Positions 3,417-46,705 of a stretch of DNA of 64,000 nt are shown one piece after another; the stretch's first letter is position 1, and each line of letters begins with the position of its first letter. The notes below the pieces were generated by a model. That model saw only the letters and a list, made by a program, of their open reading frames with translations, searched no databases and was not told the DNA's origin. The position numbers and the translations under genes were made by a program. Where the stretch lies: contig JAAUZY010000022.1 of NCBI GenBank assembly GCA_014804355.1, forward strand, positions 48,860-112,859, given 5' to 3'. The stretch comes from Lachnospiraceae bacterium. GTDB lineage: Bacteria > Bacillota > Clostridia > Lachnospirales > Lachnospiraceae.

Positions 3417-4544
3417 ATGATTAATTTTAACGTACCTCCTTATACGGGAAATGAAATCGAATATATGAGGGAAGCCATCGGGAATCAGAAGATCTGCGGA
3501 GATGGCCCTTTTACCAAAAAATGCAGTGAATGGATCGAACGTCAGACCGGCACGGCGAAATGTCTGCTCACCACATCGTGTACCCATGCTACGGAACTGG
3601 CGGCGCTGCTCGCGGATATTAAGCCGGGTGATGAGGTGATCATGCCTTCCTATACATTCGTGTCCACAGCGGATGCGTTTGTGCTACGCGGGGCTACGGC
3701 GGTATTTGTGGATGTCAGACCGGATACCATGAATATAGATGAGAAACTGATTGAGGAGGCCATTACGGAACGGACCAGGGCCATTGCACCGGTGCACTAT
3801 GCGGGTGTGGGCTGTGAGATGGATACGATCATGGATATTGCGAAGCGGCATAATCTGATGGTGATCGAAGACGCGGCGCAGGGAATCATGGCATCTTATA
3901 AGGGGAGACCTTTGGGAACTTTCGGAGAATTCGGCTGTTTCAGCTTTCATGAGACGAAGAATTTCAGTATGGGTGAAGGCGGCGCGCTGCTCATACGGGA
4001 TGAACAATATATTGAGACTGCGGAGATCTATCGGGAGAAAGGTACGGACCGCAGTAAATTTTACCGCGGCCAGGTGGACAAGTATCGGTGGCAGAATTAC
4101 GGGTCTTCCTATCTGCCAAGCGACATGAATGCCGCCTATCTGTATGCACAGCTGGAGCTGGCAGATGAGATCACGCAGGCGAGGATAGACAGGTGGAATC
4201 AGTATAGAGAGCTTCTTACACCTCTTGCGGAAGCGGGGAAGATCGAACTGCCTTATGTGCCGGAGTACTGCACTCACAACGGGCATATGTTTTATATTAA
4301 GACGAAGGATATGGAAGAGAGAGCTGAGCTGATCAACTTCCTGAAAGAGAAAGAGATCATGGCGGTATTCCATTATGTACCTCTGCATTCGGCGCCTGCG
4401 GGGATGAAATTTGGCAGATTCCACGGAGAAGACCGGTATACGACAAAGGAGAGCGAGAGACTTCTGCGTCTGCCCATGTTCTATAACCTGACGGCGGATG
4501 AGGTAGAGTACATTGCGGATCAGGTGAAGGCATTTTATCGTTAA
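3417..4544 (+). CDS. dTDP-4-amino-4,6-dideoxyhexose transaminase (WecE/FdtB type)
   Basis: 375 residues, a PLP-dependent DegT/DnrJ/EryC1/StrS aminotransferase that puts an amino group on a 4-keto-6-deoxy nucleotide sugar. Seen: VIEDAAQGI (PLP ring-stacking Asp region), SFHETKNFSMGEGGAL with the Schiff-base lysine at residue 181, and the N-terminal MINFNVPPYTGNE opening characteristic of the WecE/RffA subgroup, whose E. coli member also uses Lys181. The likely product is dTDP-4-amino-4,6-dideoxygalactose or a related sugar. The GNAT at 6648 is a good candidate to acetylate it, and formyltransferases at 23847 and 33442 are alternatives. RBS GAGAGGAA upstream of ATG 3417. The dTDP-sugar synthesis genes rmlA/rmlB are not in the window. 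Confidence 0.88.
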   Translation: MINFNVPPYTGNEIEYMREAIGNQKICGDGPFTKKCSEWIERQTGTAKCLLTTSCTHATELAALLADIKPGDEVIMPSYTFVSTADAFVLRGATAVFVDVRPDTMNIDEKLIEEAITERTRAIAPVHYAGVGCEMDTIMDIAKRHNLMVIEDAAQGIMASYKGRPLGTFGEFGCFSFHETKNFSMGEGGALLIRDEQYIETAEIYREKGTDRSKFYRGQVDKYRWQNYGSSYLPSDMNAAYLYAQLELADEITQARIDRWNQYRELLTPLAEAGKIELPYVPEYCTHNGHMFYIKTKDMEERAELINFLKEKEIMAVFHYVPLHSAPAGMKFGRFHGEDRYTTKESERLLRLPMFYNLTADEVEYIADQVKAFYR

Positions 4545-14543: not shown

Positions 14544-14580
14544 AGATATTTTATTGATCCGGAAAGGAAAAGAGGCTGTT

Positions 14581-15708
14581 ATGGAGAAGAAAAGGATATA
14601 CTTATCGTGCCCGACCATGCACGGGGAAGAGCAGAAATATGTACAGGAAGCATTCGACACGAACTGGGTTGCGCCGCTTGGCCCTAATGTCAGTGCTTTT
14701 GAACAGGAGATAGCGGCATATACGGGGTGCGGTCATGCGGCGGCGCTGAGTGCGGGAACGGCGGCGATCCACCTGGCACTGAAGCTGATCGGAGTCGGAC
14801 AGGGCGATATCGTGTTCGTGTCGGATCTGACTTTCTCGGCAACCTGTAATCCGATCGCGTACGAGGATGCGACACCGGTATTTATCGATGCGGAACCGGA
14901 TACATGGAATATGTCTCCGGAGGCGCTTAAGCGGGCTTTTGAGAAATATCCTCACCCGAAAGCCGTAATCTGCGTGCATTTGTACGGTACTCCCGCAAAA
15001 TTGGATGAGATCATGGCAATCTGCGAGGAACACGGTGTACCGATGATCGAGGATGCGGCGGAGTCTTTGAGCAGTACTTACAAGGGAAGGCATACGGGTA
15101 CATTCGGTAAATACGGCATTTATTCTTTTAACGGAAATAAGATTATCACCACTTCCGGCGGTGGTATGCTGGTATCAGCAGAGGAAGAGGCAACGAAACG
15201 CGCTACCTTCCTGGCTACACAGGCAAGGGATCCCGCCAGACATTATCAACATTCCCAGATTGGGTATAATTATCGTATGAGCAATGTCACGGCAGGAATC
15301 GGTCGGGGACAGCTTCTCCATATAGAGGAGCATAAGACCAAGAAGAAAGCGATCTATAAACAGTATCAGGAAGCTTTCGCGGATATGCCGCAGATCAGCA
15401 TGAATCCGCTGAATCCAGAGGGAGATGCAAACTGCTGGCTGTCCTGCATGACAATTAAAGACGGGTGTAATGTAACACCTGATATGATAATGGACGCATT
15501 GGCGGAGGAGAATATCGAGTCGCGTCCGATCTGGAAACCGATGCATTTGCAGCCAGTTTTTGAAAAATGTGATTTCATCGCTCACAATGAGGACGGAAGC
15601 AGTGTGGGAGAGGATGTATTCAACAGAGGGCTCTGTCTGCCCAGCGATATTAAGAATACGGATGAGGATATGGAACTGATTATCCGTACGGTTCGCGGGT
15701 GTTTTTAA
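14581..15708 (+). CDS. UDP-4-amino-sugar aminotransferase (PglE-like, DegT family)
   Basis: 375 residues. PLP enzyme with AALSAGTAAIHLALKL, MIEDAAESL and SFNGNKIITTSGGGML, in which Lys187 is the Schiff-base lysine. Together with the upstream dehydratase it should form UDP-4-amino-4,6-dideoxy-GlcNAc, the precursor of bacillosamine. ATG 14581 was chosen because the domain (KKRIYLSCPTMHGEE) begins there and it follows GGAAAGGAAAAGAGG; a longer in-frame reading would run into the preceding gene. No left-handed beta-helix PglD acetyltransferase follows; the neighbour after the initiating transferase is an ATP-grasp ligase instead. Confidence 0.9.
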   Translation: MEKKRIYLSCPTMHGEEQKYVQEAFDTNWVAPLGPNVSAFEQEIAAYTGCGHAAALSAGTAAIHLALKLIGVGQGDIVFVSDLTFSATCNPIAYEDATPVFIDAEPDTWNMSPEALKRAFEKYPHPKAVICVHLYGTPAKLDEIMAICEEHGVPMIEDAAESLSSTYKGRHTGTFGKYGIYSFNGNKIITTSGGGMLVSAEEEATKRATFLATQARDPARHYQHSQIGYNYRMSNVTAGIGRGQLLHIEEHKTKKKAIYKQYQEAFADMPQISMNPLNPEGDANCWLSCMTIKDGCNVTPDMIMDALAEENIESRPIWKPMHLQPVFEKCDFIAHNEDGSSVGEDVFNRGLCLPSDIKNTDEDMELIIRTVRGCF

Positions 15709-23425: not shown

Positions 23426-23850
23426 ATGTACGAATACACCAAAATACGTGATAACATCTGGCAGATCGCAGAAGACAACGGCGTGTACTGCACTCTTATT
23501 AAAGGAAGAGAACTGGCGGTATTGATAGATACCGGCTTCGGGAAGCGCGATCTTCGGGCGTTTGTGGAAGAAAATATTTCTACTCCGTATATTGTGATCA
23601 ACAGCCATGGACATCCGGATCATATCGGAGGAAACTACAGATTCTGATCGCCGGGGATGCTTTAAATGAGAGTCTGTGGCTGTTTAATTACGGCTCCTTG
23701 TCAATGGAACATTTATATGAGACAATTAGGTCGGCCATGGAGTAGCCTTTTGGCTTATATCTTTGCGGTCATAGTGACAAGCTATATAAAAAAGAAAAGC
23801 TGCTTTCACTTGAAAATCGGAAGACGGAAGAAAGAGGAGAAATAAGATGA
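23426..23850 (+). pseudogene. Decayed metallo-beta-lactamase-fold hydrolase
   Basis: A 73-residue opening (ATG 23426, RBS GGAGG) reads as an MBL-fold hydrolase up to the zinc motif NSHGHPDHIGGNY and stops at 23645. In another frame the sequence continues at once with LIAGDALNESLWLFNYGS (23644-23742), the later metal-ligand Asp region; an amber codon (23743) follows and then PFGLYLCGHSDKLY to 23850, resembling the last metal-ligand His region. So the gene suffered a large internal deletion with frameshift plus a nonsense mutation. It is non-functional and unrelated to sugar assembly. Its end abuts the next start codon. Confidence 0.75.
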
Positions 23851-24767
23851 AATACAAAGTAGTGGTATTCGGCGTAAAGGATACTTCGGAAAATATCGTG
23901 AACTTCATACAGGAGCAGATCTGTCCGGTGGACCTGGTGATCACCATCAGCCCGGAGGTGACGAAGAAAAATCAGGTGTCGGGATATAAAGGGCTGTCGA
24001 TTCTGACAGAGAAATACGGGATTCCGGTGCATGAGGCGGACAGCTATTTTCTGACGGATGAAAAGACCCAGAAGTTTATACGGGAAAATGAATTTGATAT
24101 CGGTATTTCCATGGGATGGCAGAGGCTGATACCGCCTTCTGTTCTGGATGCGTTCAAATATGGTATCTACGGATTCCACGGAAACTGCGGTTATCTTCCC
24201 TTCGGCAGAGGGCGGTCGCCGCTGAACTGGTCTATCATTCTGGGGGATACCAGATTCAATCTGAATATGTTCCGCTATGATGAGAAGGCGGACAGCCCCA
24301 ATGTGTTTGCAACGGAGATGTTTTCCATCACACCCCATGACGATATTCGCACGGCACAATATAAGAATATGATCTGCTCCAAGAATCTGATCCGGAAACT
24401 GCTAAAGGCTTATGAAGAGGATAATATCGTGATCCGCACGGAGTCTAAGGACTATGACTCATGGTATAATAAACGGACGGCGGCGGACGGCAAGATCGAC
24501 TTCCACGCGAGAACAAGGGAAATCTACAATCTGATTCGCGGCGTTGCGGCGCCCTTTCCGGGGGCATATGCCATGATCAGAGAAGAGAAGGTGACAGTAT
24601 GGGAAGCACATCCGTTTGATGAGATGATCGACTTCTCGGCTTATGCGCCGGGGGAGGTAATTGATATATTCGACGGTAAACCGGTGCTTCGTACGGTGGA
24701 CGGTTCCTTGCTGATCGATCGGTACGAGTGCGCAAGACAGATTGCTGTGGGGGATGTGCTGGCGTAG
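23847..24767 (+). CDS. Formyltransferase-fold protein (nucleotide-sugar N-formyltransferase-like)
   Basis: 306 residues. N-terminal Rossmann-like half and the family signature FHGNCGYLPFGRGRSPLNWS with the catalytic His111; Asp149 (EKADSPNV) fits the second catalytic position. The canonical Asn two residues before the His is Gly109 here, so the triad differs from ArnA/VioF. A C-terminal domain from about residue 215 (RGVAAPFPGAYA) resembles the Fmt C-terminal subdomain. Expected reaction: 10-formyl-tetrahydrofolate-dependent N-formylation of an amino sugar, such as those made at 3417 or 14581. RBS AGAGGAGAAATAAG overlaps the end of the pseudogene. Confidence 0.8.
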   Translation: MKYKVVVFGVKDTSENIVNFIQEQICPVDLVITISPEVTKKNQVSGYKGLSILTEKYGIPVHEADSYFLTDEKTQKFIRENEFDIGISMGWQRLIPPSVLDAFKYGIYGFHGNCGYLPFGRGRSPLNWSIILGDTRFNLNMFRYDEKADSPNVFATEMFSITPHDDIRTAQYKNMICSKNLIRKLLKAYEEDNIVIRTESKDYDSWYNKRTAADGKIDFHARTREIYNLIRGVAAPFPGAYAMIREEKVTVWEAHPFDEMIDFSAYAPGEVIDIFDGKPVLRTVDGSLLIDRYECARQIAVGDVLA

Positions 24768-28855: not shown

Positions 28856-30658
28856 ATGCAGAAAGAGACAGTGAAGAAAAAAGCGGCGTTATTTGGTTTG
28901 ATTTTTTTAATGCTATATACCAATTTTATAACATTGCAGGCTAGCTGCCATGTTGCCAGAAGGTTATTAATGACGAAGCCTGCGTATATATTATGCAATC
29001 TGTTGTTATTGACGGCTGTTTACTGCATAATAGCTTCTTTTTCGCTGACACCATGGATAACGGGGCTTATATTCAGTACGGCATGTGTCGTGTGGGCTTT
29101 GGTAAATGATTATGTATATGCACTGCACGGACAGGTATTTACTTTAGCGGAGATTTCGAATGCAAAGACGGCGCTGCACGTGATGGATGCGACATTGCTG
29201 CTGAAGAAAACGCCGCTGATTTTCGGTACGGCGGTCCTGATCATATTTGGTTCCTCTATTGTGTTATGTTATTTGCAGAAAAGGGTTGTTGCGGGAGAAG
29301 AGAAAATATCCGGAAAAAAAGCTGTGATATGCAGAGCCATGCTTTTACTTGCCGGTGGGTGTATGCTGTGGGCGATGTCGTTTCCCGCCAAGAATCTGCA
29401 AAGTGTGATATTAAGGGATTGGACGTCCAGAAATACTTGTATTGAAGAAGGATATCCCTTGTATGTGTATGCCAATATCTTCCTGAATGATATCAAAATT
29501 ACGCAGCCCGACGGTTATGATGAAGAGCTTCTGAACGATTATGAGGACTATAAGGATGAAATGGAAGGTGTCGGTGATGAACAGCCGGATATTATACTGA
29601 TTTTAAACGAATCCTTTTATGATCTGTCGATTTTGTGTGATCTGCAGACTGATGTACCTTATATGGAAAATTATTACAACATGGACAATGCGATCAAGGG
29701 AAATGCGGTAACATCCGTGATCGGCGGGGCGACAAACCGTTCGGAGTTTGAGCTGTTGACAAGCAATACGAACTACTTATTAGGGGAACTTACGCCCTTT
29801 AATGTTCTGGATATGTCCTGTACGAGCAGCATAGTAACGAATTTAGAGGAGTGCGGATATTACACGATGGCGGCACATCCGGCGGACGGCGGGAATTATA
29901 ACAGGATAGAAAGTTATTCCGCCATGGGATTTGATGAAAGATTTTTTAAAGAAGATTTCGAAAACTATATGTATTATGGAAAACGTGAATGGATGATGGA
30001 TGAAGGCGCTTATCACAATCTGACCGCATGGTATGAAAGCAGAAAAGCCGATCATGACAAAATCTTCTCATATTTGCTTACCATGCAGAATCACGGTGAT
30101 TACATGATGAACGATGCGGAGGAAGCACTGGTTCATGTTTCCGGATACAGCGGCGATCTGGAAAAGGAATTGAACGAATACCTTTCCTGCGTTCGTCTCA
30201 GCGATATCGCGTTTAAGGAGCTTACAGAGTATTATTCCGGAAAAGAACAGCCCGTCATCATATGTATGGTAGGAGATCATGCACCGAATTTTATACGGGA
30301 AGTTGCGGAAATTGATTCTCCCAGGCAGGAGATTTTAGCGCGGGCAACACCGTTTATTATATGGGCAAATTATGATATTGACAGTGAGGATATGGGAGTG
30401 ATCAGCGTAAACGGATTGGTTCCGCTTTTGTTAGAAAAGGCGGGAGTGGAGATGATGCCGTATTATCGCTATATGAACTGTATGCGGGAAGAGGTTCCGG
30501 TGACGGGAAGTTTCGGAATGGTTATGGATGCAGAGGGAGAAATATTTTCTTATTACGATGATATGGAGTACTCTGACATGGTTTGGAAATATTTGTATCT
30601 ATCCTATAATAATTTGCAGGAAGAGAGCGTACAAGGCTGGTTTCATCTTGATCATTAA
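28856..30658 (+). CDS. LtaS-like phosphoglycerol transferase (alkaline phosphatase superfamily)
   Basis: 600 residues. Five N-terminal membrane spans (to about residue 185), then an extracytoplasmic sulfatase-fold domain: PDIILILNESFYD with metal ligand Glu252, GGATNRSEFELLTS with the presumed nucleophile Thr293, TMQNHGDYM, and MVGDHAPNF with Asp474-His475. This is the layout of lipoteichoic acid synthase, which moves glycerol phosphate from phosphatidylglycerol to a glycolipid or polymer. Directly followed (39 bases) by the Dlt-like cassette 30698-36178, as would be expected if a polyglycerol-phosphate-type or phosphoglycerol-decorated polymer were then aminoacylated. RBS GGAAGGTAAGTAAG. Confidence 0.88.
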   Translation: MQKETVKKKAALFGLIFLMLYTNFITLQASCHVARRLLMTKPAYILCNLLLLTAVYCIIASFSLTPWITGLIFSTACVVWALVNDYVYALHGQVFTLAEISNAKTALHVMDATLLLKKTPLIFGTAVLIIFGSSIVLCYLQKRVVAGEEKISGKKAVICRAMLLLAGGCMLWAMSFPAKNLQSVILRDWTSRNTCIEEGYPLYVYANIFLNDIKITQPDGYDEELLNDYEDYKDEMEGVGDEQPDIILILNESFYDLSILCDLQTDVPYMENYYNMDNAIKGNAVTSVIGGATNRSEFELLTSNTNYLLGELTPFNVLDMSCTSSIVTNLEECGYYTMAAHPADGGNYNRIESYSAMGFDERFFKEDFENYMYYGKREWMMDEGAYHNLTAWYESRKADHDKIFSYLLTMQNHGDYMMNDAEEALVHVSGYSGDLEKELNEYLSCVRLSDIAFKELTEYYSGKEQPVIICMVGDHAPNFIREVAEIDSPRQEILARATPFIIWANYDIDSEDMGVISVNGLVPLLLEKAGVEMMPYYRYMNCMREEVPVTGSFGMVMDAEGEIFSYYDDMEYSDMVWKYLYLSYNNLQEESVQGWFHLDH

Positions 30659-30697
30659 GTGGAACGCGGGTCTTTATAAGATACATGAGGTATACGG

Positions 30698-31828
30698 ATG
30701 AAAAAATGGTGTAAGGCTTTTCTATTTATCCTGCCGCTTATGTGTATGGTGGCGGCGGTCAACTGGTATGTGGATTCCTATGCATATCTGCGGGTGACCT
30801 ATGATCAGATCGGTGAACAGATGGTGGGAGGTTCCATGAATGTGATGGGGCTTCAGGAGTCGGATTTTAACGACAGAAGCCTGCTGCTGGCCTGTCTGAA
30901 GCAGCAGGAAGAGGCGAAGGAACTGATCGTTGCGGGTTCCAGCCGGGTGATGAATTTCGACCACACAATGTTTGACACAGACTCTTTTTACAACACGGCA
31001 TTGTCTGAATCTACGATCTATGATCTTTTGGCGGTAACCGGGATTCTGGATCAGACGGGGTGCCTGCCCGAGCGGATGATAATCGGGGTGGACGCATTTC
31101 TTTTCAATGCGAGTCATAATAATGACCGGTGGAAAGAGCTGGAGGAGTATGTTGCCTATATGGAGAAAGCCATTGAGCAGGCGGGATATGGGGCTATGGA
31201 GCAAAGTGAGCAATCGCGAAGTGGCTCCGGCATAGCAGGCGCGGGTATACATTCACAACCGGATACCGGCAGGAATAACAACAAATGGCTGTCTTTAGAC
31301 TATTTCCGCTACAACGTTACTCTCCTTCCGTCGCATAAACGTTTCGCGGTCACGTACACGCAGGATTGGGAAGCGGAGCAGTATCTGAAGCATTACGACG
31401 GCAGTATCGCCTATCAGAAGAGTCTGCGGGATGTGGATGTGAGTGAAGTGGAAGAATTGACGAGGCAGTCTATGGATGAGCACGTTGTCTACCGTTTGAC
31501 GGATTATGACGAGATGGATGAGGAAAGCGTGGCGCTGTTTAGCGGGTTGATCGACTATCTGCAGGCGCAGGGAGTGGAAGTGATGTTATACTTGCCACCC
31601 TATTCCCCCATGATGTATAATTACATAGAATCTGAGGAGCAGTTTCATATTGCTTTTGAGGTGGAAGACAAGATCAGACAGATGGCTGCGGATCGGGGAG
31701 TGGTTCTGTACGGTTCCTATGATCCTGCGGGCTGCGGACTTAAGATGACTGATCTGTATGATATCTATCATGTGAAAACTGAGAAGATGCCGGATACGTT
31801 CTATCCGGTATCCCTTAAGGAGAACTAG
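30698..31828 (+). CDS. DltD-like SGNH hydrolase-fold membrane protein
   Basis: 376 residues. One N-terminal signal-anchor (about 5-25), then an extracytoplasmic domain with IVAGSSRVMNFD (nucleophile Ser at 81 or 82, SGNH block I) and DIYH (355-358, the block V Asp-x-x-His). DltD carries the same layout and is required for the last step of teichoic acid D-alanylation. A Gly/Ser/Gln-rich stretch near residues 165-190 coincides with a palindromic insertion (31193-31236). The stop is three bases before the adenylation gene's ATG at 31832. RBS GAGGTATACGG. Confidence 0.8.
   Translation: MKKWCKAFLFILPLMCMVAAVNWYVDSYAYLRVTYDQIGEQMVGGSMNVMGLQESDFNDRSLLLACLKQQEEAKELIVAGSSRVMNFDHTMFDTDSFYNTALSESTIYDLLAVTGILDQTGCLPERMIIGVDAFLFNASHNNDRWKELEEYVAYMEKAIEQAGYGAMEQSEQSRSGSGIAGAGIHSQPDTGRNNNKWLSLDYFRYNVTLLPSHKRFAVTYTQDWEAEQYLKHYDGSIAYQKSLRDVDVSEVEELTRQSMDEHVVYRLTDYDEMDEESVALFSGLIDYLQAQGVEVMLYLPPYSPMMYNYIESEEQFHIAFEVEDKIRQMAADRGVVLYGSYDPAGCGLKMTDLYDIYHVKTEKMPDTFYPVSLKEN
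31193..31236 (+). repeat. Inverted-repeat insertion inside the DltD-like gene
   Basis: GCTATGGAGC (31193-31202) faces GCTCCGGCATAGC (31224-31236), forming a 44-base inverted repeat with CCG bulged on one side. It encodes part of a low-complexity segment in an otherwise folded domain and resembles the GCTATGAACCGGAGC repeat inside the GT4 gene at 24952. Confidence 0.55.
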
Positions 31829-31831
31829 AGT

Positions 31832-33337
31832 ATGAAAGCAAATGTTACCTATTGGCTGGACGAAACTGCAGGCAGACTGCCGGACAAAACTGCTTTTGCA
31901 GATGATCATAAAGAGATTACCTTCGGACAGCTCAGAAAGCAGGCTATGGCGCTGGCTACACATATGATCGGAAAAAATTTATTTAAGAAACCGGTAGTCA
32001 TCTATCTGGAAAAAGGTGTTGATGTACTGGTTTCTTTTATGGGCGCGGCCTATAGCTGTAATTTCTACTCGCCTATCGATGTGGATATGCCTGCAAGCCG
32101 TGTGAATAAGATTCTGGAAGTGCTGCAGCCGTCACTCGTGGTGACGAGCAGGGAACTGCAGCCGGTCTTTGAACAGTTCGATTATAAGGGAGATTATCTG
32201 CTGTTTGAGGAGGCTATAGACGGTGCGGTTGACGAAAATGCCATTGAGGCGGCGAGAGGTAAAGGCATCGATACGGATCTATTGTACGTCCTCTTTACTT
32301 CCGGCTCCACCGGTGTGCCTAAAGGCGTGACCATCAACCACCGGTCCGTGATTGATTATATAGATTGGGTGACGGAGACCTTTGAGATTACGCAGGAGGA
32401 CACCTTCGGCAATCAGGCGCCTTTCTATTTCGATAATTCGATTCTAGATATCTACAGCACGATCAAGAGCGGCGCGACTACATATATTATTCCGAAGAAC
32501 CTGTTTGCGCAGCCGGTGCCGTTGTTGGAATACCTGAAAGAAAAGAAAATCAATACGATTTTCTGGGTGCCGTCGGCGCTGATCGTGGTAGCCAAGTTAA
32601 AAGCATTTCGTAATGTGGATCTGTCGGACACACTGCGCAGGGTGCTGTTCTGCGGCGAAGTAATGCCTAATAAACAGCTGAATACATGGCGCAGATTTCT
32701 GCCGGATGTTCAGTATGCAAATCTGTACGGGCCTACCGAAATTACGGATGCCTGCACCTATTATATTGTAGACCGTGAATTCACAGACGATGAGCCGCTG
32801 CCCATCGGCATCCCGATGGCAAATACGGATATCATCGTCCTGAACGACAGAAACGAGCCGGTTACCGGAGATGAGATCGGGGAGCTGTGCGTCAGAGGCA
32901 CTTCGCTTTCCATGGGATATTACAATAATCCGGAGAAGACGAAGGAAGCCTTTGTACAGAATCCGCTGAATCCGTATGTTCCCGAAACTATTTACCGCAC
33001 CGGCGATCTGGTGAAATATAACGAATACGGCGAGATCATCTACCTGTCCCGCAAAGATTTCCAGATTAAGCATATGGGACACCGGATTGAATTAGGTGAG
33101 ATCGAGACAGCTGTTTCCTCTCTGGAGCAGATCGCGCTCTGTTGCTGTCTCTATGACGAGAAGCGGCAGAAGATCGTGTTGTTTATCGAGGAGGAATTGG
33201 ACAAGGCATATATCAATGAACAAATTTCCAGTCTTGTGCCTGAATATATGCTGCCGAATAAGGTAGTCACACTTCCGGACATGCCCATCAACGCGAACGG
33301 CAAGATTGACCGGGTGAAGCTGAAGGAATATTTATAA
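31832..33337 (+). CDS. DltA-like amino acid adenylation enzyme
   Basis: 501 residues, matching DltA in size. A3 loop TSGSTGVPKGV (from residue 156), A4 region QAPFYFDNSILDIY with Asp201, the residue that binds the alpha-amino group in DltA and NRPS A-domains, A5 ANLYGPTEITDAC, A7 YRTGDLVKY, A8 FQIKHMGHRIELGEIE, and the catalytic lysine Lys491 in PINANGKID. It activates an amino acid as aminoacyl-AMP and loads it on the carrier protein coded at 34373. The pocket after Asp201 is Asn-Ser rather than the Leu-Ser of DltA (comparison from memory), so the substrate may not be D-alanine. No standalone condensation domain is present. Confidence 0.88.
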   Translation: MKANVTYWLDETAGRLPDKTAFADDHKEITFGQLRKQAMALATHMIGKNLFKKPVVIYLEKGVDVLVSFMGAAYSCNFYSPIDVDMPASRVNKILEVLQPSLVVTSRELQPVFEQFDYKGDYLLFEEAIDGAVDENAIEAARGKGIDTDLLYVLFTSGSTGVPKGVTINHRSVIDYIDWVTETFEITQEDTFGNQAPFYFDNSILDIYSTIKSGATTYIIPKNLFAQPVPLLEYLKEKKINTIFWVPSALIVVAKLKAFRNVDLSDTLRRVLFCGEVMPNKQLNTWRRFLPDVQYANLYGPTEITDACTYYIVDREFTDDEPLPIGIPMANTDIIVLNDRNEPVTGDEIGELCVRGTSLSMGYYNNPEKTKEAFVQNPLNPYVPETIYRTGDLVKYNEYGEIIYLSRKDFQIKHMGHRIELGEIETAVSSLEQIALCCCLYDEKRQKIVLFIEEELDKAYINEQISSLVPEYMLPNKVVTLPDMPINANGKIDRVKLKEYL

Positions 33338-33441
33338 CTGTTCACATCTTCGACAAGAGTAGCATCTGGCTGTGTATTGATATGGGTATGTTAGTAACGT
33401 CTTAAATAATTATGACTATACAGAAAGGCATAGACACTGGC

Positions 33442-34311
33442 ATGAAGACATCATTTCAGAAAGTTGTCATCCTCGGCTACGGCAAGGTAACCGGAGAAGT
33501 ATTGCAGTATGTATATGACAGTAGAGAAGAATACGGGTATCAGGTAGAGTTTATCGAGCACGAGATACATCCCTTAAATATTACGGAGAAGATCTGTGCG
33601 GAAAACAATATCCCTTTTACACAGATTACGGATAAGAAAGAGCTGGCGGCAGTCCTTGACCGGATAACGGAGAAAACGCTGATCATAAGCGCCAGCAATA
33701 ATTTCCTGTTTCCGGCCGCCCTTGTGGACAAGCCGAATATCACCATTATCAATTTTCACAATGCCCTTCTGCCCGATTACCCCGGCAGAAACGCGCCCAC
33801 ATGGGTTATTTATATGGGAGAAAAGAAAACCGGTATCACATGGCATTACGTGACTTCCGGTGTGGATGAGGGCAGCATTATTATTCAGAAACAATGTGAG
33901 ATCACAGAAGATATGAAGGCCTATGAACTGACGGAACAACTCATGAATCTTGCGTCAGAGGCTTTTCGAGAGAGCTTCGCGGGTATCCTTGATGAGAGTG
34001 TGGCGGCGATCCCGCAAGGCTTTGACCCTGATCGCAGGATGTACCGTTCCCGTGAAGTGCCAGCAGACGGTTTCTTTGCACTGACGGATCAGCCGGAGAA
34101 TGTCTATCGACTGCTTAGAAGCGTAGATTACGGCAAGAATGATATTTTCCCGCCGATGCGGACGATCATAGACGGACGGGAGGCAGAAATCCTGCGATAC
34201 CGTAAGATACCTGTCGATAAACGTAAGGATGAAGAAGGATTTTTATATCTGAAATTAAGAGCGTGCGATTTGTTAAAGATGAAATATCGTTTTTTGGATG
34301 TAAATTTGTAA
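33442..34311 (+). CDS. Formyltransferase (ArnA/Fmt/LgrA-F-like) inside the Dlt-like cassette
   Basis: 289 residues. All three catalytic residues of the family are in place: Asn104 and His106 in INFHNALLPDYPGRNAPTW and Asp142 in TSGVDEGSI, almost the same spacing as ArnA. It should transfer formyl from 10-formyl-tetrahydrofolate to an amine. It lies between the adenylation gene and the carrier gene, so candidates for the acceptor are the aminoacyl-carrier thioester (as the F-domain of gramicidin synthetase LgrA does) or an amino sugar. A short C-terminal part (about 200-289) is not the usual Fmt C-domain. ATG 33442 begins the first strand (KVVILGYGKVTG); ATG 33412 is an alternative without RBS. 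Confidence 0.85.
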   Translation: MKTSFQKVVILGYGKVTGEVLQYVYDSREEYGYQVEFIEHEIHPLNITEKICAENNIPFTQITDKKELAAVLDRITEKTLIISASNNFLFPAALVDKPNITIINFHNALLPDYPGRNAPTWVIYMGEKKTGITWHYVTSGVDEGSIIIQKQCEITEDMKAYELTEQLMNLASEAFRESFAGILDESVAAIPQGFDPDRRMYRSREVPADGFFALTDQPENVYRLLRSVDYGKNDIFPPMRTIIDGREAEILRYRKIPVDKRKDEEGFLYLKLRACDLLKMKYRFLDVNL

Positions 34312-34372
34312 TACATTACATAGACGTACGGCGATACACCCCTATCTTATTTTTTGAAAGGAGCATTACATA

Positions 34373-34603
34373 ATGGAAGAAAAAATCTTAGAAATTCTGG
34401 AAGAACACTGTGAGGAAGCGCTGTCCTACGATGGCGACAGCATGATGGAGGACGGTGTCATCGATTCTTTCACCGTCATCAATGTAGTCAGCGACCTTGA
34501 GGATGAATTTGATATCGAAATTGACGCAAAATATGTAGTGGCTGAGAACTTCAAGAACAAAGAAGCTATCATCGCCCTCGTGCAGAAACTGTTGGAGGAA
34601 TAA
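34373..34603 (+). CDS. DltC-like acyl/aminoacyl carrier protein
   Basis: 76 residues, the size of DltC. Four-helix carrier with the phosphopantetheine serine Ser32 in GVIDSFTVINVV; strongly acidic helix II/III (LEDEFDIEID). It should carry the amino acid activated by the adenylation enzyme at 31832 as a thioester and hand it to the MBOAT protein coded directly downstream. GAAAGGAGCATTACATA before ATG 34373 is a strong RBS. The MBOAT start codon follows the stop codon without a gap. Confidence 0.9.
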   Translation: MEEKILEILEEHCEEALSYDGDSMMEDGVIDSFTVINVVSDLEDEFDIEIDAKYVVAENFKNKEAIIALVQKLLEE

Positions 34604-36178
34604 ATGCAGCTCATATCCTATTCCTTTGTGGCGCTCTGGATGTTGACTTTTGCGCTTTATTATCTGGTTCCGAAGAAGTTTCAGTGGTATATCCTGCTGG
34701 CAGCCAGCCTGGTCTTCTATGTCATAGGACTTAGGGGCTTCCCGCTTGGTCTGCTGCTTACGGCTATCACGACCTACGGGTGCGGCATCTACTTGAAAAA
34801 TTCTCTGGAACGTGAGAAGACAGAGAGTGCACAGAGTGCCGACAAGGAGAGCAAGAAGGCATGTAAGGCCGCATTTGCGAAGAAACGGAAACGGGTTCAG
34901 ATCCTGTATATTGTCTTTAATCTGGGATTACTGCTTTTTTATAAATATGCGGTTGTTCTGGTGCCATTTGCAGAGACTTTGACGGGCTCGCATATCGGAT
35001 TTTTGGAAAAAGTGATTATGCCGTTGGGGATTTCTTTCTACACCCTGACCGCCATCAGCTATGTGGTGGATGCGGGAAGAGAGAACTGTAAGGTAGAGAC
35101 GGATTTCCTGAAGGTGCTCCTGTTTCTGGCATATTTCCCTGCGGTTACACAGGGGCCTTTCAATCGTTTTGACAAGATGAAGGAACAGTTCGAGCGGGAG
35201 CATGTATTTCAATATGATCGAATGCTTCGCGCAGTCCAGCGCTTCGTCTGGGGTGCGTTCAAGAAGCTGGTGATTGCCGATCGGATCGGTATTTTTGTAG
35301 ACAGAGTGTACGGTGTCGAGACATCTTCTGTGGAAGGCAGTATTTTTGCCTGTGCCACGGTTTTTTATATGCTTCAGCTTTATGCGGATTTTTCCGGATA
35401 TATTGATATGGCGGCGGGTGTCAGCGAGACATTTGATATTGTGTTGCCAGAGAATTTCAAGCGTCCCTATTTCGCAAGGTCCGTGGCGGATTTCTGGCGT
35501 AGATGGCATATCACGCTGGGAACATGGTTTAAGGACTACGTGATGTTTTCCTTTGTGATGTCGGGGACGGGACGTAAGATCAATAAAGCCTGCAAGAATA
35601 AGTGGAATGGCATGGGCAGGCAGGTGGTACCGATCATCGGAACGATGCTTGTCTGGTTCTTCACAGGGATATGGCACGGCAGGACGCTTGCTTATATGCT
35701 GTGGGGCGTTTATTACGGCGTTATCATGAGCGTATCACTGCTTCTGGAACAGAAGTATGTCGGTTGGAAGGTAAAACTCCATATCAAAGACGGCAAGGCG
35801 TGGTCTTTCTTCTGCATGGCGCGGACATGGGTCATTGTCTTTATAGCGGATGTGCTGATCCGGAGTGAGAGTCTGGCACAGGCGGGTGCAATCTATAGCG
35901 CTTTCGTGACACGACTGAACTTGCGGACATTACTTTCGAGGGAGATCACTTCTTATGGACTCAGTAAATATGATTTTATGCTGCTGGCAGTGGTACTGTT
36001 GATTTGGCTGGCGGTGTCTGTACTGGAAGAGCGGGGAGAGGATGTGCGGACTTATTTTGCCGGCAGACCGATAGTCATTAGATGGGCGTTCTATTACGGA
36101 ATTGTTCTGCTCGTGTTGATAACGGGAATCTACGGTGGCGGCTATGATACGGCAGCGTTTATGTATCAGAGTTTTTAA
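34604..36178 (+). CDS. DltB-like MBOAT O-acyltransferase
   Basis: 524 residues, about eleven membrane spans. MBOAT signature: RSVADFWRRWHITLGTWFKDY and the catalytic His358 in TGIWHGRTLAYMLWG. DltB/AlgI relatives take an acyl group from a carrier or donor in the cytoplasm and transfer it across the membrane, with an SGNH protein as partner. ATG 34604 directly follows the TAA of the carrier gene, so the two are co-translated. With DltD-, DltA- and DltC-like neighbours the assignment to aminoacyl transfer is better than to plain O-acetylation. Confidence 0.9.
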   Translation: MQLISYSFVALWMLTFALYYLVPKKFQWYILLAASLVFYVIGLRGFPLGLLLTAITTYGCGIYLKNSLEREKTESAQSADKESKKACKAAFAKKRKRVQILYIVFNLGLLLFYKYAVVLVPFAETLTGSHIGFLEKVIMPLGISFYTLTAISYVVDAGRENCKVETDFLKVLLFLAYFPAVTQGPFNRFDKMKEQFEREHVFQYDRMLRAVQRFVWGAFKKLVIADRIGIFVDRVYGVETSSVEGSIFACATVFYMLQLYADFSGYIDMAAGVSETFDIVLPENFKRPYFARSVADFWRRWHITLGTWFKDYVMFSFVMSGTGRKINKACKNKWNGMGRQVVPIIGTMLVWFFTGIWHGRTLAYMLWGVYYGVIMSVSLLLEQKYVGWKVKLHIKDGKAWSFFCMARTWVIVFIADVLIRSESLAQAGAIYSAFVTRLNLRTLLSREITSYGLSKYDFMLLAVVLLIWLAVSVLEERGEDVRTYFAGRPIVIRWAFYYGIVLLVLITGIYGGGYDTAAFMYQSF

Positions 36179-39907: not shown

Positions 39908-41818
39908 ATGTGTGGAATATGCGGTTATATCAGTAAAAAGAGGATAACAATAAATCAGTTGATAGACATGAACGATACGATGTATCACAGAGGACCGGAC
40001 GACAGCGGCGCGGAAGTCTATGAGATGACCGGAGGCCGGCGGGTCGGGTTTGCACAGAGGCGGCTTTCCATTCTGGATCTGTCTGCGTTGGGGCACCAGC
40101 CCATGCACTCTGCGGATCAGCGGATCAGTGTAGTATATAATGGTGAAATTTATAATTATAGGGAACTTAGAGAAGAATTGGCGGACTATCCCTTCCGGTC
40201 CAACTGTGATACGGAGGTCATCATAGCCGCCTATTTAAAATGGGGCATTCGGTGCGTGGAGCGGTTCAACGGGATGTTTGCGATCGCGTTGTTTGACAGG
40301 CAGACGCAGGAAGTATATCTGGTACGCGACCGCATTGGTAAGAAGCCCCTCTATTATTGGTATGAAGACGGTAATCTGGTATTTGCCTCAGAGTTAAAAC
40401 CGATCATGAAGTGTCCGGGCTTTACGGGTGAGATTGATCGCCGCGTATTGTCCCGCTATCTGTTCCAGCAGTATATCAATGCGCCGGAGAGTATTTACCG
40501 GAATGTATATAAGCTGGAGCCAGGGGCGGTTCTGCGGTTTACGGAGGGGAATATCAACACATGGAAATACTGGGATGTCAGTAAAGTGTACCGGGAAGCT
40601 GTGGGAAATCAGATCAAAGATTACGGGGAGGCCAAGGCCTGCCTGAAGGAAGCGCTACAGAAGTCCGTGCGTTCCCGCATGATCGCCGATGTGCCGCTGG
40701 GATCTTTCTTAAGCGGCGGCTATGATTCTTCACTGGTCACTGCCATTGCGCAGGAGTGCTCGGATAGTCCGGTGAAGACTTTCTCCATCGGTTTTCACGA
40801 GGAAAAGTATAATGAGGCCAAGTATGCCAAGGCTGTAGCGGATTATCTGGGAACAAACCACACGGAACTCTATATTGATGAGAGGGACATGTTTGATCTG
40901 GTGGAGAGCATACCGGCGTACTATGATGAACCGTTTGCGGATAGTTCGCAGATTGCCACAATGATGGTATCCAAATTGGCAAAAGAGCATGTGACGGTGG
41001 CGCTGTCGGGAGACGGCGGCGATGAGTTCTTCTGCGGTTATAATATTTATCAGAATGTGGCACAGGCGCAGAAGTTGGATACGCTCGGAGCAATGGTATA
41101 CGGTGTATGTCATCTTCCGATACTTAAGCAGATGCATATGGCGGACCGGCTGCCCTTCAAAGTGCGTGTAATCGCTGGTAACAGGGAGAGAGAGAGTAAG
41201 ACCCAGTTTGGCGCGGGAAACTATCTGGTTCGAGCGAAAGCGATGGTACAGGCGCCGCAAAGGGGAAAGACCGGTCGGAGAGAAGAGGCACTTCCCATCC
41301 ATTATCTGTTTGAGAGCCGATATAATGTGAAGGACTGGCAGATCAGGAGAATGCTTCTTGATATGGACACATATCTTCCGGGGGATATTCTATGTAAAGT
41401 GGATCGAGCTTCCATGAAATATTCTCTGGAAGCACGCTGCCCGATTTTAGATACAGATGTTATGGAATTGTCTTACAGGATTCCGCATGCATATAAATAT
41501 GCCGATGGAGATAAAAAACATATCCTGAAAGATATCGCTTATGATTATATTCCGAAGGAACTTTTGGAGAGGCCAAAGGTGGGATTTGGTGTTCCGCTGG
41601 ATAAGTGGCTGCGGGGACCGCTTAAAGAACAGCTGTTAGATTACAGTGGTTATGATTATTTGAAACGACAGGATATTTTCGATGCGAAGTATGTTTCAGA
41701 CATGATCGGGCAGTATGTCAGGACAGGAGATGCGGGTCCCGCGACGGGAGCGAACTACTCAAAATTGACATGGTCCTTCTTCGTATTCCAACAGTGGTAT
41801 CAGACGTATCACGAGTGA
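39908..41818 (+). CDS. AsnB-like glutamine amidotransferase (asparagine synthase family), copy 1
   Basis: 636 residues. N-terminal Ntn glutaminase domain with the nucleophile Cys2 (MCGICGYI), YHRGPDDSG and YNGEIYNY; C-terminal ATP-pyrophosphatase with LSGGYDSSLV (SGG at 269-271), ALSGDGGDEFFCGY and CKVDRASMKYSLE. It hydrolyses glutamine and amidates a carboxylate through an acyl-AMP. Inside polysaccharide loci such genes (for example WbpS) are linked to amidation of uronic acids; the predicted UDP-GalNAcA here would be a substrate or precursor. ATG 39908 overlaps the usual start with Cys as second residue, which fixes the start. A second copy lies at 44777. Confidence 0.9.
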   Translation: MCGICGYISKKRITINQLIDMNDTMYHRGPDDSGAEVYEMTGGRRVGFAQRRLSILDLSALGHQPMHSADQRISVVYNGEIYNYRELREELADYPFRSNCDTEVIIAAYLKWGIRCVERFNGMFAIALFDRQTQEVYLVRDRIGKKPLYYWYEDGNLVFASELKPIMKCPGFTGEIDRRVLSRYLFQQYINAPESIYRNVYKLEPGAVLRFTEGNINTWKYWDVSKVYREAVGNQIKDYGEAKACLKEALQKSVRSRMIADVPLGSFLSGGYDSSLVTAIAQECSDSPVKTFSIGFHEEKYNEAKYAKAVADYLGTNHTELYIDERDMFDLVESIPAYYDEPFADSSQIATMMVSKLAKEHVTVALSGDGGDEFFCGYNIYQNVAQAQKLDTLGAMVYGVCHLPILKQMHMADRLPFKVRVIAGNRERESKTQFGAGNYLVRAKAMVQAPQRGKTGRREEALPIHYLFESRYNVKDWQIRRMLLDMDTYLPGDILCKVDRASMKYSLEARCPILDTDVMELSYRIPHAYKYADGDKKHILKDIAYDYIPKELLERPKVGFGVPLDKWLRGPLKEQLLDYSGYDYLKRQDIFDAKYVSDMIGQYVRTGDAGPATGANYSKLTWSFFVFQQWYQTYHE

Positions 41819-43540: not shown

Positions 43541-43553
43541 AAATAACGCATGG
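43541..43553 (+). repeat. 13-base direct repeat, right copy
   Basis: AAATAACGCATGG, containing ATG 43550. See the left copy at 43167. Confidence 0.8.
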
Positions 43554-44662
43554 AACAAAAAGAAGAAATTGGAATCGGAGAACAGAATAGAGCTTGGATT
43601 GTCTTGCAGATTGGTGGCTTTATTGCGATTTTTTTGGTGTTGCTGTTGGTGGTGTCTTATATGGTAAGGACTAACGGGGATGTGAAGGATCGGTTTGCGG
43701 GATTTTATGCTGAGAAGAAGGATTCTCTGGATATCGTGATGATTGGTTCGAGTCCGGTTTTTCCTTATTATGCAGCGCCTAAGCTTTGGGGGGAGAGCGG
43801 CATCGCGATGTATCCGTTGTCTTCCAATGTACAGCGGCCTGTGGCGATGAAGTATCTGGTGGAGGAGGCGGAGAAATCCCAGAATCCTAAGCTGTATATT
43901 TTCGAGATGAGAATGTTTACTATGGAAGACGCGGGGCTTCGGGAGAATATGGCGTACACCCGGGGCGTGACGGATAATCTGCGGTATTCGGGACTCAGGA
44001 ATAAGACGATACAGGCGATGGTTCCGGAAGACGATGAGGAAGGAAGGATCAGCTTCTATCTGGATATCATGAAATATCACACGAACTGGAAGATGCTGGC
44101 GCTTCCGTCGGAGTGGGCGAATATGCTATACTACAATCCGCATCCGCTCAAAGGGTATACTTTCAAGGATGAAGTGGGACCGCTGCCCATGCCGGATTGT
44201 GGTAATGCGGGGGGAACGAAAGCGATTCCGGAGGAGCAGGAGGCGTATCTGCGGGATTTATTGGATTATTTGGAGCAGGGGAATCGTGAGGCGCTGTTTA
44301 TTGTATCGCCCTACGGGGAATCGTTAGAGGACCAGCAGATGTACAATTATATAGGAGAGATTGTGACATCCTGCGGCTATCGGTTTCTGAATATGAACGA
44401 TTATTATGAGCAGATCGGCATAATATTCGAGGAAGATTTCGCGGATTACGGCAGTCATACGAATGCCGTCGGAGCGGAGAAGTGCACGGGTTTTCTGCAG
44501 ACGTATTTGTTGGAAAATTATGATTTCGCGGATAAACGGGGCGAGGCGGCATACGAGTCGTGGGATGAGGCGTATGTAAGATGGCAGGGCGAGATGGAGA
44601 CTGCAAGGCAGACGATAGCCGAACGGATCGCGAACGAGGAGTATGCTGTTGTGGAAGAGTGA
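43550..44662 (+). CDS. SGNH hydrolase-fold membrane protein (DltD-related)
   Basis: 370 residues. One N-terminal membrane anchor (about 18-42), then an extracytoplasmic domain: DIVMIGSSPVFPYY with a block I serine and DYGSHTNAVGAEKC with the block V His. The same organisation as the DltD-like protein at 30698, though motifs around the serine differ (GSSPV versus GSSRV). Such proteins commonly partner with MBOAT acyltransferases; the only MBOAT in the window is at 34604, so this might be a second acceptor-specific partner, or an independent O-acyltransferase or esterase. RBS region GGGAGAAATGAG is about 10 bases upstream of the ATG. Confidence 0.72.
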   Translation: MEQKEEIGIGEQNRAWIVLQIGGFIAIFLVLLLVVSYMVRTNGDVKDRFAGFYAEKKDSLDIVMIGSSPVFPYYAAPKLWGESGIAMYPLSSNVQRPVAMKYLVEEAEKSQNPKLYIFEMRMFTMEDAGLRENMAYTRGVTDNLRYSGLRNKTIQAMVPEDDEEGRISFYLDIMKYHTNWKMLALPSEWANMLYYNPHPLKGYTFKDEVGPLPMPDCGNAGGTKAIPEEQEAYLRDLLDYLEQGNREALFIVSPYGESLEDQQMYNYIGEIVTSCGYRFLNMNDYYEQIGIIFEEDFADYGSHTNAVGAEKCTGFLQTYLLENYDFADKRGEAAYESWDEAYVRWQGEMETARQTIAERIANEEYAVVEE

Positions 44663-44670
44663 AGTGATAT

Positions 44671-44781
44671 GAGCGAAGCTTAACTAAGAAGAGGACAAGA
44701 CATAATTGAGCGAAACTCAGCTAAGAAGAGGACAAGATACAATAGAGCGAAGTTCAATTAAAGAAAGGAAAGATACATGTG
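44671..44781 (+). repeat. Three 37-base tandem repeats carrying the asnB-like leader
   Basis: Units start at 44671, 44708 and 44745, each exactly 37 bases, opening with GAGCGAA and containing CTAAGAAGAGGACAAGA (units 1-2) or TTAAAGAAAGGAAAGA (unit 3). The third ends across the ATG at 44777, so its purine-rich part is the working ribosome binding site and the upstream units are inactive copies. No spacers, so not a CRISPR array. Confidence 0.85.
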
Positions 44782-46705
44782 TGGAATTGCCGGATTATGT
44801 AATTGGGGTGACAACTGGCAGCGGAATATAGAGAGAATGAATGAGAAGATGTATCACAGAGGGCCGGACGCTTCCGGTGTCTGGGCCTCTGAAGATCATG
44901 CCGTGGTTCTGGGACACAGAAGGCTCTCTATTGTGGATCTGACTCCATCGGGCGCGCAGCCCATGGAATCTCATGACGGGCGCTACGTGATAGCCTATAA
45001 CGGAGAAATCTATAATTACCGGACGATTCGGGACAGGCTGCTGCAGGAGCACAAGACAGCGGATTTTCGGGGGACATCCGATACGGAGATACTTCTGGAG
45101 GCAATCGCGGCATATGGCATGGAAGAGACACTTCGCATGGCAAAGGGCATGTTTGCTATGGCTGTATATGATAAAAAAGAACAAGCGTTATCAATTGCCC
45201 GTGACAGGGTGGGGGAGAAGCCTTTGTACTATGGATTTGTGCAGGGAGACAAGTTTGTATTTGCTTCCGACCTGAATTCTATTGCGGCGTTGGATGGCTT
45301 TGAAAACCCCGTTAATACGGGGATTCTGCAGCAATATTTTCGATATGGCTACATTCCGGCGCCCTATTCTGTTTATCAGAATATATATAAATTAGAGCCG
45401 GGGAAACTCTTGAAAATTAAATTTCCATTTAATAAATACGACATAAAAACCTACTGGTCCATGCGTGAGGCAGCGGTTTACGGACAGTCGCATCTTTTTA
45501 CGGGAAACGAGACGGAGGCGGCGGAGGAATTGGAACGACTGCTGAAAGAATCAATTCGTGGCCAGATGGTGGCCGATGTGCCGGTGGGAGCATTCCTATC
45601 CGCAGGAATCGACAGTAGCACGGTGGTATCACTTATGCAGTCCATAAGTGACAGGAAGGTGCGCAGCTTCACGATCGGTATGTGGGACGAGAAATTCAAT
45701 GAAGCGGACATTGCCGGTCAGATTGCGGCACATCTGGGAACGGAGCATACAGAACTGTATATCACGGAGGAGGATGCCCGCGGGGTGATCCCGCATCTGG
45801 CGCAGATGTTTGGGGAACCTTTTGCGGATTCGTCTCAGATTCCCACGTATCTTGTCAGTAAGATGACCAGAGAGCATGTGACGGTATCTTTAAGCGGGGA
45901 CGGAGGCGATGAGCTGTTCTGCGGTTATAATACCTACACCTCTATCGACAGAATCTGGCAGAAAACGCGAAAGATTCCCTATGGGCTGCGTAAGCCGGTC
46001 AGCGCACTTCTCGGTGTGGGTAGTGCCGGAAGCCACGGTGCTATGGCAGTCAGAGCCGGGCTTCTGGGAGCGCGCAGTATTGAGGATATGTATCTGCGAT
46101 CCGAGATCGGAGAAGGGTTCCGGCTTGTGAGGAGACAGAAAGGCGCGGCTAAAACCGACGGAGAGTTATGCGCGCAGGCAGAGCGGTATGATACGGTTAT
46201 GGATACCTATCCGTCAGGGCTTCTCCAGGAACCGCAGCACAATTTGATGTTGATGGATCTGCTGATGTATCATCCTGACGACATTCTGTGTAAGGTGGAC
46301 CGCACTGCTATGGCGGTCTCACTGGAGACGAGGGTGCCTATGCTGGATCGGGATGTGGTAGAGTTTGCATGGACGCTTCCGCTGGCCTATCGCAAGCAGG
46401 ATGGTGTGACTAAAAAGGTCCTGCGTGATATCCTCTATCGCTATGTGCCTCGTGAGTTGATGGAGCGGCCGAAGAAGGGATTCAGCATTCCCCTGCATAA
46501 ATGGCTGAAGGAACCGGAACTACGCGAGTGGGCACAGAGCCTGATCGACAGGAAGACGCTGGATGAGCAGGGCATATTGGAGACTGATGTAGTATGGCAG
46601 TTGTGGGACGACTATATTAAGCGGGATATCTGGCGTGTGCAGATCTGGTATGTGTTGATGTTTCAGGAGTGGATGCGCACGTGTTATTCTCGGAACGATG
46701 ATTAG
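44777..46705 (+). CDS. AsnB-like glutamine amidotransferase (asparagine synthase family), copy 2
   Basis: 642 residues. Cys2 nucleophile (MCGIAGLC), YHRGPDASG, AYNGEIYNY; synthetase domain with FLSAGIDSSTVV, where the usual SGG of the PP-loop is SAG, SLSGDGGDELFCGY and CKVDRTAMAVSLE. Same reaction type as copy 1, but only moderately similar in the C-terminal third, which suggests a different carboxylate acceptor. Candidates are a hexosaminuronic acid or a carboxylated substituent. Translation starts from the third unit of the tandem repeat at 44671. Confidence 0.9.
   Translation: MCGIAGLCNWGDNWQRNIERMNEKMYHRGPDASGVWASEDHAVVLGHRRLSIVDLTPSGAQPMESHDGRYVIAYNGEIYNYRTIRDRLLQEHKTADFRGTSDTEILLEAIAAYGMEETLRMAKGMFAMAVYDKKEQALSIARDRVGEKPLYYGFVQGDKFVFASDLNSIAALDGFENPVNTGILQQYFRYGYIPAPYSVYQNIYKLEPGKLLKIKFPFNKYDIKTYWSMREAAVYGQSHLFTGNETEAAEELERLLKESIRGQMVADVPVGAFLSAGIDSSTVVSLMQSISDRKVRSFTIGMWDEKFNEADIAGQIAAHLGTEHTELYITEEDARGVIPHLAQMFGEPFADSSQIPTYLVSKMTREHVTVSLSGDGGDELFCGYNTYTSIDRIWQKTRKIPYGLRKPVSALLGVGSAGSHGAMAVRAGLLGARSIEDMYLRSEIGEGFRLVRRQKGAAKTDGELCAQAERYDTVMDTYPSGLLQEPQHNLMLMDLLMYHPDDILCKVDRTAMAVSLETRVPMLDRDVVEFAWTLPLAYRKQDGVTKKVLRDILYRYVPRELMERPKKGFSIPLHKWLKEPELREWAQSLIDRKTLDEQGILETDVVWQLWDDYIKRDIWRVQIWYVLMFQEWMRTCYSRNDD

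Follow-up and report, generated by a model that had tools for sequence, protein, structure and literature searches.

The window analyzed here was a 64 kb stretch (positions 48,860 to 112,859) of the 147 kb contig JAAUZY010000022.1, which belongs to a Lachnospiraceae bacterium with a genome of 3.85 Mb (assembly GCA_014804355.1). It harbored a Dlt-like aminoacylation cassette with a formyltransferase (FMT) in the slot between its adenylation protein and its carrier. Six intact open reading frames (ORFs), all on the + strand, were found there in the window ORF list. An LtaS-superfamily phosphotransferase/sulfatase (28856..30658, PF00884) was the upstream neighbour. It was followed by a DltD-like SGNH-type protein, the probable extracytoplasmic partner of the MBOAT (30698..31828, weak DUF1574 match, GSS and DxxH motifs), a DltA-like stand-alone amino-acid adenylation protein (31832..33337, PF00501/TIGR01733, pocket DNLFLCLDAK), the FMT (33412..34311, PF00551, N-H-D triad), a carrier protein with Ser32 as phosphopantetheine site (34373..34603, weak PP-binding/DltC matches, DS motif) and a DltB-like MBOAT transferase (34604..36178, PF03062, WRRWH, and WHG at 298 and 357). 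Further residues read were Asp201 and Lys491 of the adenylation protein and the Thr in the ATNRSEF stretch of the LtaS-like protein; we take the motifs of the adenylation, carrier, MBOAT, DltD-like and LtaS-like proteins to have their customary functional roles. The six ORFs, their positions and the residues named in the original prediction were all recovered by the ORF list and by profile and motif scans. The predicted gaps (39, 3, 104, 61 and 0 bases) and triad numbering (Asn104/His106/Asp142) were reproduced when 33442, an internal ATG, was taken as the start of the FMT; with the first ATG, at 33412, the gap between the DltA-like gene and the FMT was 74 bases and the triad became Asn114/His116/Asp152. 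The start at 33442 is more likely according to the structure model, as it fits the low confidence of the first ten residues (mean pLDDT 68) in an FMT model with a pLDDT of 94.

The FMT scored 77.7 bits with PF00551 (gathering cut-off 26.1) and displayed the Asn-His-Asp triad. The adenylation protein reached 345.2 bits with TIGR01733 and 320.5 bits with the DltA equivalog TIGR01734, below its cut-off of 559.85. Similarly, the MBOAT scored 54.3 bits with PF03062 and 146.8 bits (E 1e-42) with the DltB equivalog TIGR04091, below the cut-off of 375, and the carrier scored 20.6 bits with the DltC equivalog TIGR01688 (cut-off 52.35) and 35.5 with the DltC model PRK05087 (cut-off 68). Judged by these profiles, the adenylation protein, the carrier and the MBOAT resemble Dlt proteins, yet they stay under the Dlt equivalog cut-offs. 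The DltD-like protein matched DUF1574 weakly and no DltD model of Pfam or NCBIfam at E<=0.01, and a sequence search against solved structures gave no relative of it. The cassette shares with DltABCD a stand-alone adenylation protein, a small carrier, an MBOAT and an SGNH-type partner, adjacent on one strand; it differs by the extra FMT between adenylation protein and carrier, by parts scoring below the Dlt cut-offs and by five of ten pocket positions.

These pocket letters were obtained by alignment with the true DltA of genome G082 (locus L092), which displayed DLMVLCTVAK where the window displayed DNLFLCLDAK. Asp235, Leu299, Cys301, Ala331 and Lys517 were common to both, in a position numbering that we take to be the standard one. 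Since these five positions are shared with a true DltA, our guess is that the window protein would load a small amino acid. The commoner pocket of the FMT class, DVKIMSLCNK, was nearly unchanged in cassettes with a BtrK-like enzyme (see below), from which it is a fair guess that cassettes of this DVK class would load a dicarboxylic amino acid. Naming the amino acid from pocket letters was given up; Lys at position 239 may be linked to acidic amino acids.

Relatives of the FMT were collected by scanning one genome per species, which yielded 47 loci; 40 of these matched at E<=1e-38. These 40 loci were chosen for having the FMT and were read in stretches of 5 to 21 kb (11 were shorter than 20 kb, with a minimum of 5.3 kb); they include near-copies, e.g. 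L077/L080/L081, L069/L071 and L048/L063. Duplicates (L036-L039, L041 and L157, equal to L062, L061, L045, L083, L047 and L071, respectively) were excluded from the tree, motif and window-type counts. Most loci belonged to Lachnospiraceae; the others included Paenibacillus, Oscillibacter, a Bacteroidales metagenome-assembled genome (MAG) and an Ornatilinea MAG. The association with the adenylation gene was tight. Three FMTs were fused to the adenylation protein in one reading frame in the order A-F (L048:8468-10846, L057:8393-10807 and L063:8468-10615), 31 lay within 200 bp of the adenylation gene, two at ~255 bp with the carrier in between, one at 3.9 kb, and three had no adenylation gene on the stretch. 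Carriers were found at 28 of the 40 loci, MBOATs at 27 and SGNH proteins at 24. A strict motif recovered the N-H-D triad in 43 out of 44 FMTs. No sugar-pathway genes were detected near 35 of the 40 loci with the window's own proteins as queries, which can miss remote glycosyltransferases; a DegT gene occurred near the FMT at two loci. That the FMT belongs with the adenylation/carrier pair was supported by the three fusions and 31 close neighbours, and by the swapping of the slot elsewhere (see below). The core of DltA-like protein, FMT, carrier and MBOAT is conserved. At L065, L067, L072 and L082, genes of KAS-III-like, SDR or metallo-lactamase-fold type lay close to the FMT and adenylation genes, and no MBOAT directly adjoined the FMT; a formylated aminoacyl group would perhaps have a different fate there.

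Matches to the FMT at E<=1e-10 occurred in 107 of 250 family genomes and were presumably housekeeping formyltransferases for the most part; eight genomes, the window's own included, matched at E<1e-30. The other seven of these displayed adenylation gene, FMT, carrier and MBOAT together in four cases (L036-L039), three of them in the order of the window. At L041 the FMT adjoined an MBOAT and an SGNH gene; at L035 an adenylation gene with a carrier lay ~7 kb away from it, and at L040 a different AMP ligase did so, also at ~7 kb. A genome of the same genus, G370, harbored DltD-like protein, adenylation protein, FMT, carrier and MBOAT in the same order, with a close relative of the DltD-like protein (L145:5280-6374, E 9e-144); among the loci searched, this was the only relative of the DltD-like gene at 30698, and the SGNH protein of other lineages differed from it. 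The viral contigs searched contained no FMT relative.

At the three FMT loci without an adenylation gene on the stretch (L046, L047 and L076), the neighbours of the FMT were an MBOAT, an SGNH gene and a PP-loop gene. Their genomes each held one strong adenylation match (52-53% identity) elsewhere, arranged as adenylation gene, carrier, MBOAT and SGNH gene. All three sets displayed the pocket of the FMT-linked class and an empty slot. The pairs were located on different contigs: L156 and L047 in G176, L209 and L046 in G397, L210 and L076 in G398. Two of the three genomes harbored a second, weaker adenylation match (39%); the pocket of one (L205) was of another type, that of the other (L212 of G398) of the FMT type. 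These arrangements are most simply read as split cassettes, which leaves the extra adenylation gene of G398 unexplained. Chance neighbourhood of FMT and cassette was considered and rejected on the distance counts and on the adenylation genes found in the split-cassette genomes.

The adenylation family itself was common, being present in 160 out of 397 family genomes at E<=1e-95. A census of the slot was based on 60 loci picked solely by their adenylation protein among the higher entries in the list of 160 positives, hence a non-random set. The 28 loci of class DAKC had an empty slot in 24 cases and a carrier far away or not found in four, and none had an FMT; the eight loci of class SMxYLALD were divided between four empty slots and four without a carrier found. 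Class DVK..S.CN (13 loci) displayed a pyridoxal phosphate (PLP) decarboxylase in ten, an FMT in one and an empty slot in two (the split cassette of G176 and L193). The pocket class of the window, DNLFLCLD (seven loci), displayed one FMT, two GNATs, three AAC(3)-like proteins in or beside the slot and one locus with none seen; the three AAC(3)-like loci had no MBOAT in reach. Different pockets were seen at the remaining four loci, of which one had a GNAT. The GNAT of L082, which had no Pfam match, was assigned by similarity to L143 and L065.

The ten PLP decarboxylases (L169, L175, L182, L191, L194-L198 and L201) were assigned as BtrK-like by Pfam for three, by a search against solved structures for one and by similarity for seven. 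The one compared with solved structures was nearest to BtrK (~1e-29), an L-glutamyl-[BtrI acyl-carrier protein] decarboxylase. The position of such enzymes between adenylation gene and carrier suggests that these cassettes would decorate the surface with esters of a decarboxylated amino acid. A parallel is provided by the PLP enzyme VinO, which decarboxylates an amino acid on a carrier that was loaded by a stand-alone adenylation enzyme (PMC11284099). Three of the BtrK-like decarboxylases scored with TIGR03099, and the window adenylation protein with TIGR03098, both exosortase A-named models and both below cut-off. A 939-aa frame of L192 (2742-5561) displayed a BtrK-like domain at its start and, by eye, a transmembrane stretch and a transglutaminase-like end. 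Its BtrK-like domain lay directly upstream of an adenylation gene of class DAKC, which counts against a strict pairing of slot and pocket.

A quick tree of 100 adenylation proteins, a non-random set with 35 of 97 inner branches left open, required eight changes of the FMT label, at least seven of them forced by starred branches. From these label changes, repeated gain or loss of the FMT association seems likely. The window paired with its same-genus relative, and the clade around this pair included GNAT and AAC(3) members. As judged by the encoded proteins, three unrelated folds occupy the place between loader and carrier in different lineages, each with a chemistry that would fit a carrier-bound amino acid. 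The FMT slot accordingly reads as a tailoring slot, and the sister cassettes with a GNAT would be expected to N-acetylate. We regard this swappable slot as a more general and more interesting fact than the FMT alone.

The LtaS-like gene was the one member of the predicted cassette that fell away. Its product scored 79.4 bits with PF00884 and 23.5 bits with the LtaS equivalog NF053595, far below the cut-off of 970. Neither the 40 related loci nor the 28 kb read around the G370 cassette yielded an LtaS homologue, and the cassette proper therefore starts at the DltD-like gene.

Thirty window ORFs were examined by Pfam and displayed glycosyltransferases, two DegT aminotransferases (3417-4544 and 14452-15708), a PglF-like dehydratase, a UDP-sugar dehydrogenase, an epimerase and DUF6020 and DUF6056 proteins. 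This gene set reads as a surface-polysaccharide cluster with the cassette inside. A second formyltransferase, of ArnA type, was located 9 kb upstream of the FMT (23847..24767, + strand; PF02911 58.7 bits, PF00551 30.6 bits) and is likely an amino-sugar formyltransferase, being in the same cluster as the two DegT genes. The genome contained four PF00551 genes: the FMT, the ArnA-type gene and two on other contigs, which by score and length are probably the methionyl-tRNA and purine enzymes. No second DltA-like gene was found in this genome at E<=1e-40. Another SGNH-type protein of the window (43550-44662) was related to the SGNH partners of the cassettes in L039 and L041 and was conserved in G370, there within a longer protein. 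The polysaccharide cluster also included asparagine-synthase-like genes at 44777-46705 (PF00733) and 39908-41818 (by eye only).

We consider it probable that the cassette encodes a Dlt-type surface-acylation pathway with N-formylation at the carrier stage, followed by MBOAT/SGNH transfer to a surface polymer. In the Dlt pathway, an amino acid is first loaded and then transferred by the MBOAT with its SGNH partner. By family, the adenylation protein would load an alpha-amino acid onto the phosphopantetheine of the carrier. The FMT, as its conserved placement, fusions and swaps suggest, would then formylate the amine of the amino acid while it is bound to the carrier, with 10-formyl-tetrahydrofolate as donor. 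By analogy with DltB and DltD, the MBOAT would finally carry the N-formyl-aminoacyl group off the carrier and across the membrane and, together with the SGNH protein, esterify a surface polymer, most likely the polysaccharide of the surrounding gene cluster in the case of the window. With its amine formylated the ester would be neutral, unlike that of D-alanine. The original prediction is partly supported in this respect: its core was upheld, while it erred on LtaS and was too narrow in scope.

N-formylation on a carrier is known from the initiation module of the linear gramicidin synthase LgrA, with domain order F-A-PCP. Both systems couple a formyltransferase to an adenylation domain and a carrier, and A-FMT fusions occur at 3 of the 40 loci. 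These fusions are, however, A-F and not F-A, the window proteins are separate, the FMT sequence is nearer to sugar formyltransferases, and an MBOAT follows instead of a condensation domain. Alteration of an amino acid on its carrier is also shared with BtrJ/BtrI/BtrK of butirosin (Btr) biosynthesis, the details of which are general background, and with VinN/VinL/VinO, and BtrK-like enzymes occupy the same slot in the sister clade. Both of those systems differ by performing a decarboxylation and by serving antibiotic pathways without an MBOAT (for VinN/VinO, PMC11284099). Among the matches listed in literature searches on dlt genes and on a formyltransferase with a dlt-like operon, a carrier or a polysaccharide, with subscription journals mostly outside their reach, this arrangement was not described.

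Several observations weigh against this pathway. No MBOAT was seen in the stretch read at 13 of the 40 FMT loci. The FMT family is rare: it was present in the 8 of 250 family genomes mentioned above (E<1e-30) and in 2 of 391 genomes of a class sample (E<=1e-40), the window's own included in both. A lack of conservation in related genomes, which the original prediction had named as refuting it, was not seen for the FMT family as a whole, though within the genus G370 has the gene and G060 gave no FMT match. Around an adenylation gene of G398 with an FMT-type pocket (L212:6942-8477), neither a carrier nor an MBOAT, FMT or decarboxylase was recognised in 15 kb. Locus L193 of G057 displayed the arrangement adenylation gene, carrier, MBOAT and SGNH gene with an empty slot despite its FMT-type pocket, and the FMT-positive family genomes did not include G057. 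By sequence, the nearest solved structure of the FMT was WbkC (7.8e-33), the F domain of LgrA following at 2.6e-16; in a fold comparison the top places went to QdtF, FdtF and WbkC, and ArnA and Fmt scored 1 to 2 Z units lower. The LgrA chain was not among the 50 best matches listed in that comparison, which carries no weight against kinship. Finally, the cassette itself sits in a cluster with DegT aminotransferases and glycosyltransferases.

These last points bear on whether the FMT might be an ordinary nucleotide-amino-sugar N-formyltransferase caught in a dlt-like operon, the cassette adding an unmodified amino acid. Such an enzyme would account for the nearness to WbkC, QdtF and FdtF in sequence and fold and would find a context in the two DegT genes of the window. 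The FMT indeed shares fold, triad and nearest sequence with the sugar N-formyltransferases WbkC, ArnA and VioF, whereas the genomic partners of its relatives are adenylation and carrier genes rather than sugar genes. The predicted refutation by an amino-sugar substrate was weakened by the 35 loci lacking the searched sugar genes in the stretch read, DegT being seen at two, although the nearest solved relatives are still sugar formyltransferases. The three fusions, the 31 direct neighbours, the ArnA-type formyltransferase already present in the window and the replacement of the FMT by a GNAT or BtrK-like enzyme speak against a sugar substrate as well, and we hold it to be unlikely.

The FMT could also act ahead of the loading step, on the free amino acid, or else on a side-chain amine, which the pocket might recognise through its Asp at position 330 (residue 306). 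The window displays Asp here where DltA has Val. A pre-formylated amino acid should nevertheless bind badly, because the pocket keeps Asp235 (window residue 201), which presumably binds the free alpha-amine; the A-FMT fusions moreover place the FMT beside the loading site, and this alternative has a small chance of being correct. Use of the N-formyl-aminoacyl carrier to start the assembly of a small molecule or lipid, without transfer to a polymer, appears highly improbable. It would suit L065, L067, L072 and L082, where KAS-III-like or SDR genes lie close to the adenylation gene (Pfam on one member per cluster), and a KAS-III-like gene noticed by eye in L035, but it leaves aside the MBOAT of the window and of 27 out of 40 loci and the SGNH proteins of 24.

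Carrier-stage N-formylation may be extended by a further enzyme in relatives of the cassette. A WbuX-like PP-loop protein was found near the cassette in 17 of the 40 FMT loci (L045:5287-6300, L049, L050 and 14 more), in 11 of them directly upstream of the adenylation gene. Three members scored 177.9 (L045), 165.4 and 143.1 bits with the N-acetyl sugar amidotransferase model TIGR03573, whose cut-off is 203.2, and one compared with solved structures had LpNASAT as sole relative (2.4e-10). WbuX-type enzymes convert an acetamido group of a sugar into an amidine. Like WbuX and WbpG, all 17 proteins displayed the PP-loop letters SGGxD, and cysteine pairs were conserved: 16 displayed a relaxed C..C/C..C arrangement, the remaining one starting at a contig edge, and nine the tetracysteine pattern CXXCXn[GN]XCXXC given for WbuX (PMC10607449). 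They differ from WbuX and WbpG in remaining under the cut-off and in their surroundings, which contain a carrier-loading cassette and for the most part no sugar genes. The window was rejected as a case of this kind, having no PP-loop relative among its ORFs; none was found in its genome either (assembly 91% complete, genome search without positive control).

Since an N-formyl group provides an amide at hand, the WbuX-like variants may make amidines, with N-formimidoyl-aminoacyl products predicted; thioformylation is an alternative. Such an enzyme could restore the positive charge, and loss of charge, which the original prediction had stressed, is therefore not generalisable to the whole family. 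We tentatively propose, at somewhat less than an even chance, a modular acylation in Clostridia in which the carrier-bound amino acid is rewritten in a swappable slot before the MBOAT acts, the WbuX variant leading to cationic N-formimidoyl-aminoacyl esters. The word formimidoyl was absent from the literature matches listed, and to our knowledge no pathway is known for decorating surfaces with N-formimidoyl-aminoacyl esters.

The cassette is suited to study in vitro by mass spectrometry, requiring three soluble proteins, or one more with the WbuX-like enzyme. D-alanylation sets the surface charge of Gram-positive bacteria and hence their response to cationic peptides. If the proposal is true, this surface charge chemistry would be programmable at one enzymatic slot in Lachnospiraceae and their relatives, many of which come from gut samples, the slot enzymes capping, removing or rebuilding the charged group while it is on the carrier. 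Formylated peptides are known immune signals, and N-formyl groups on the surface of a commensal would accordingly be of interest for host recognition if such esters are sensed.

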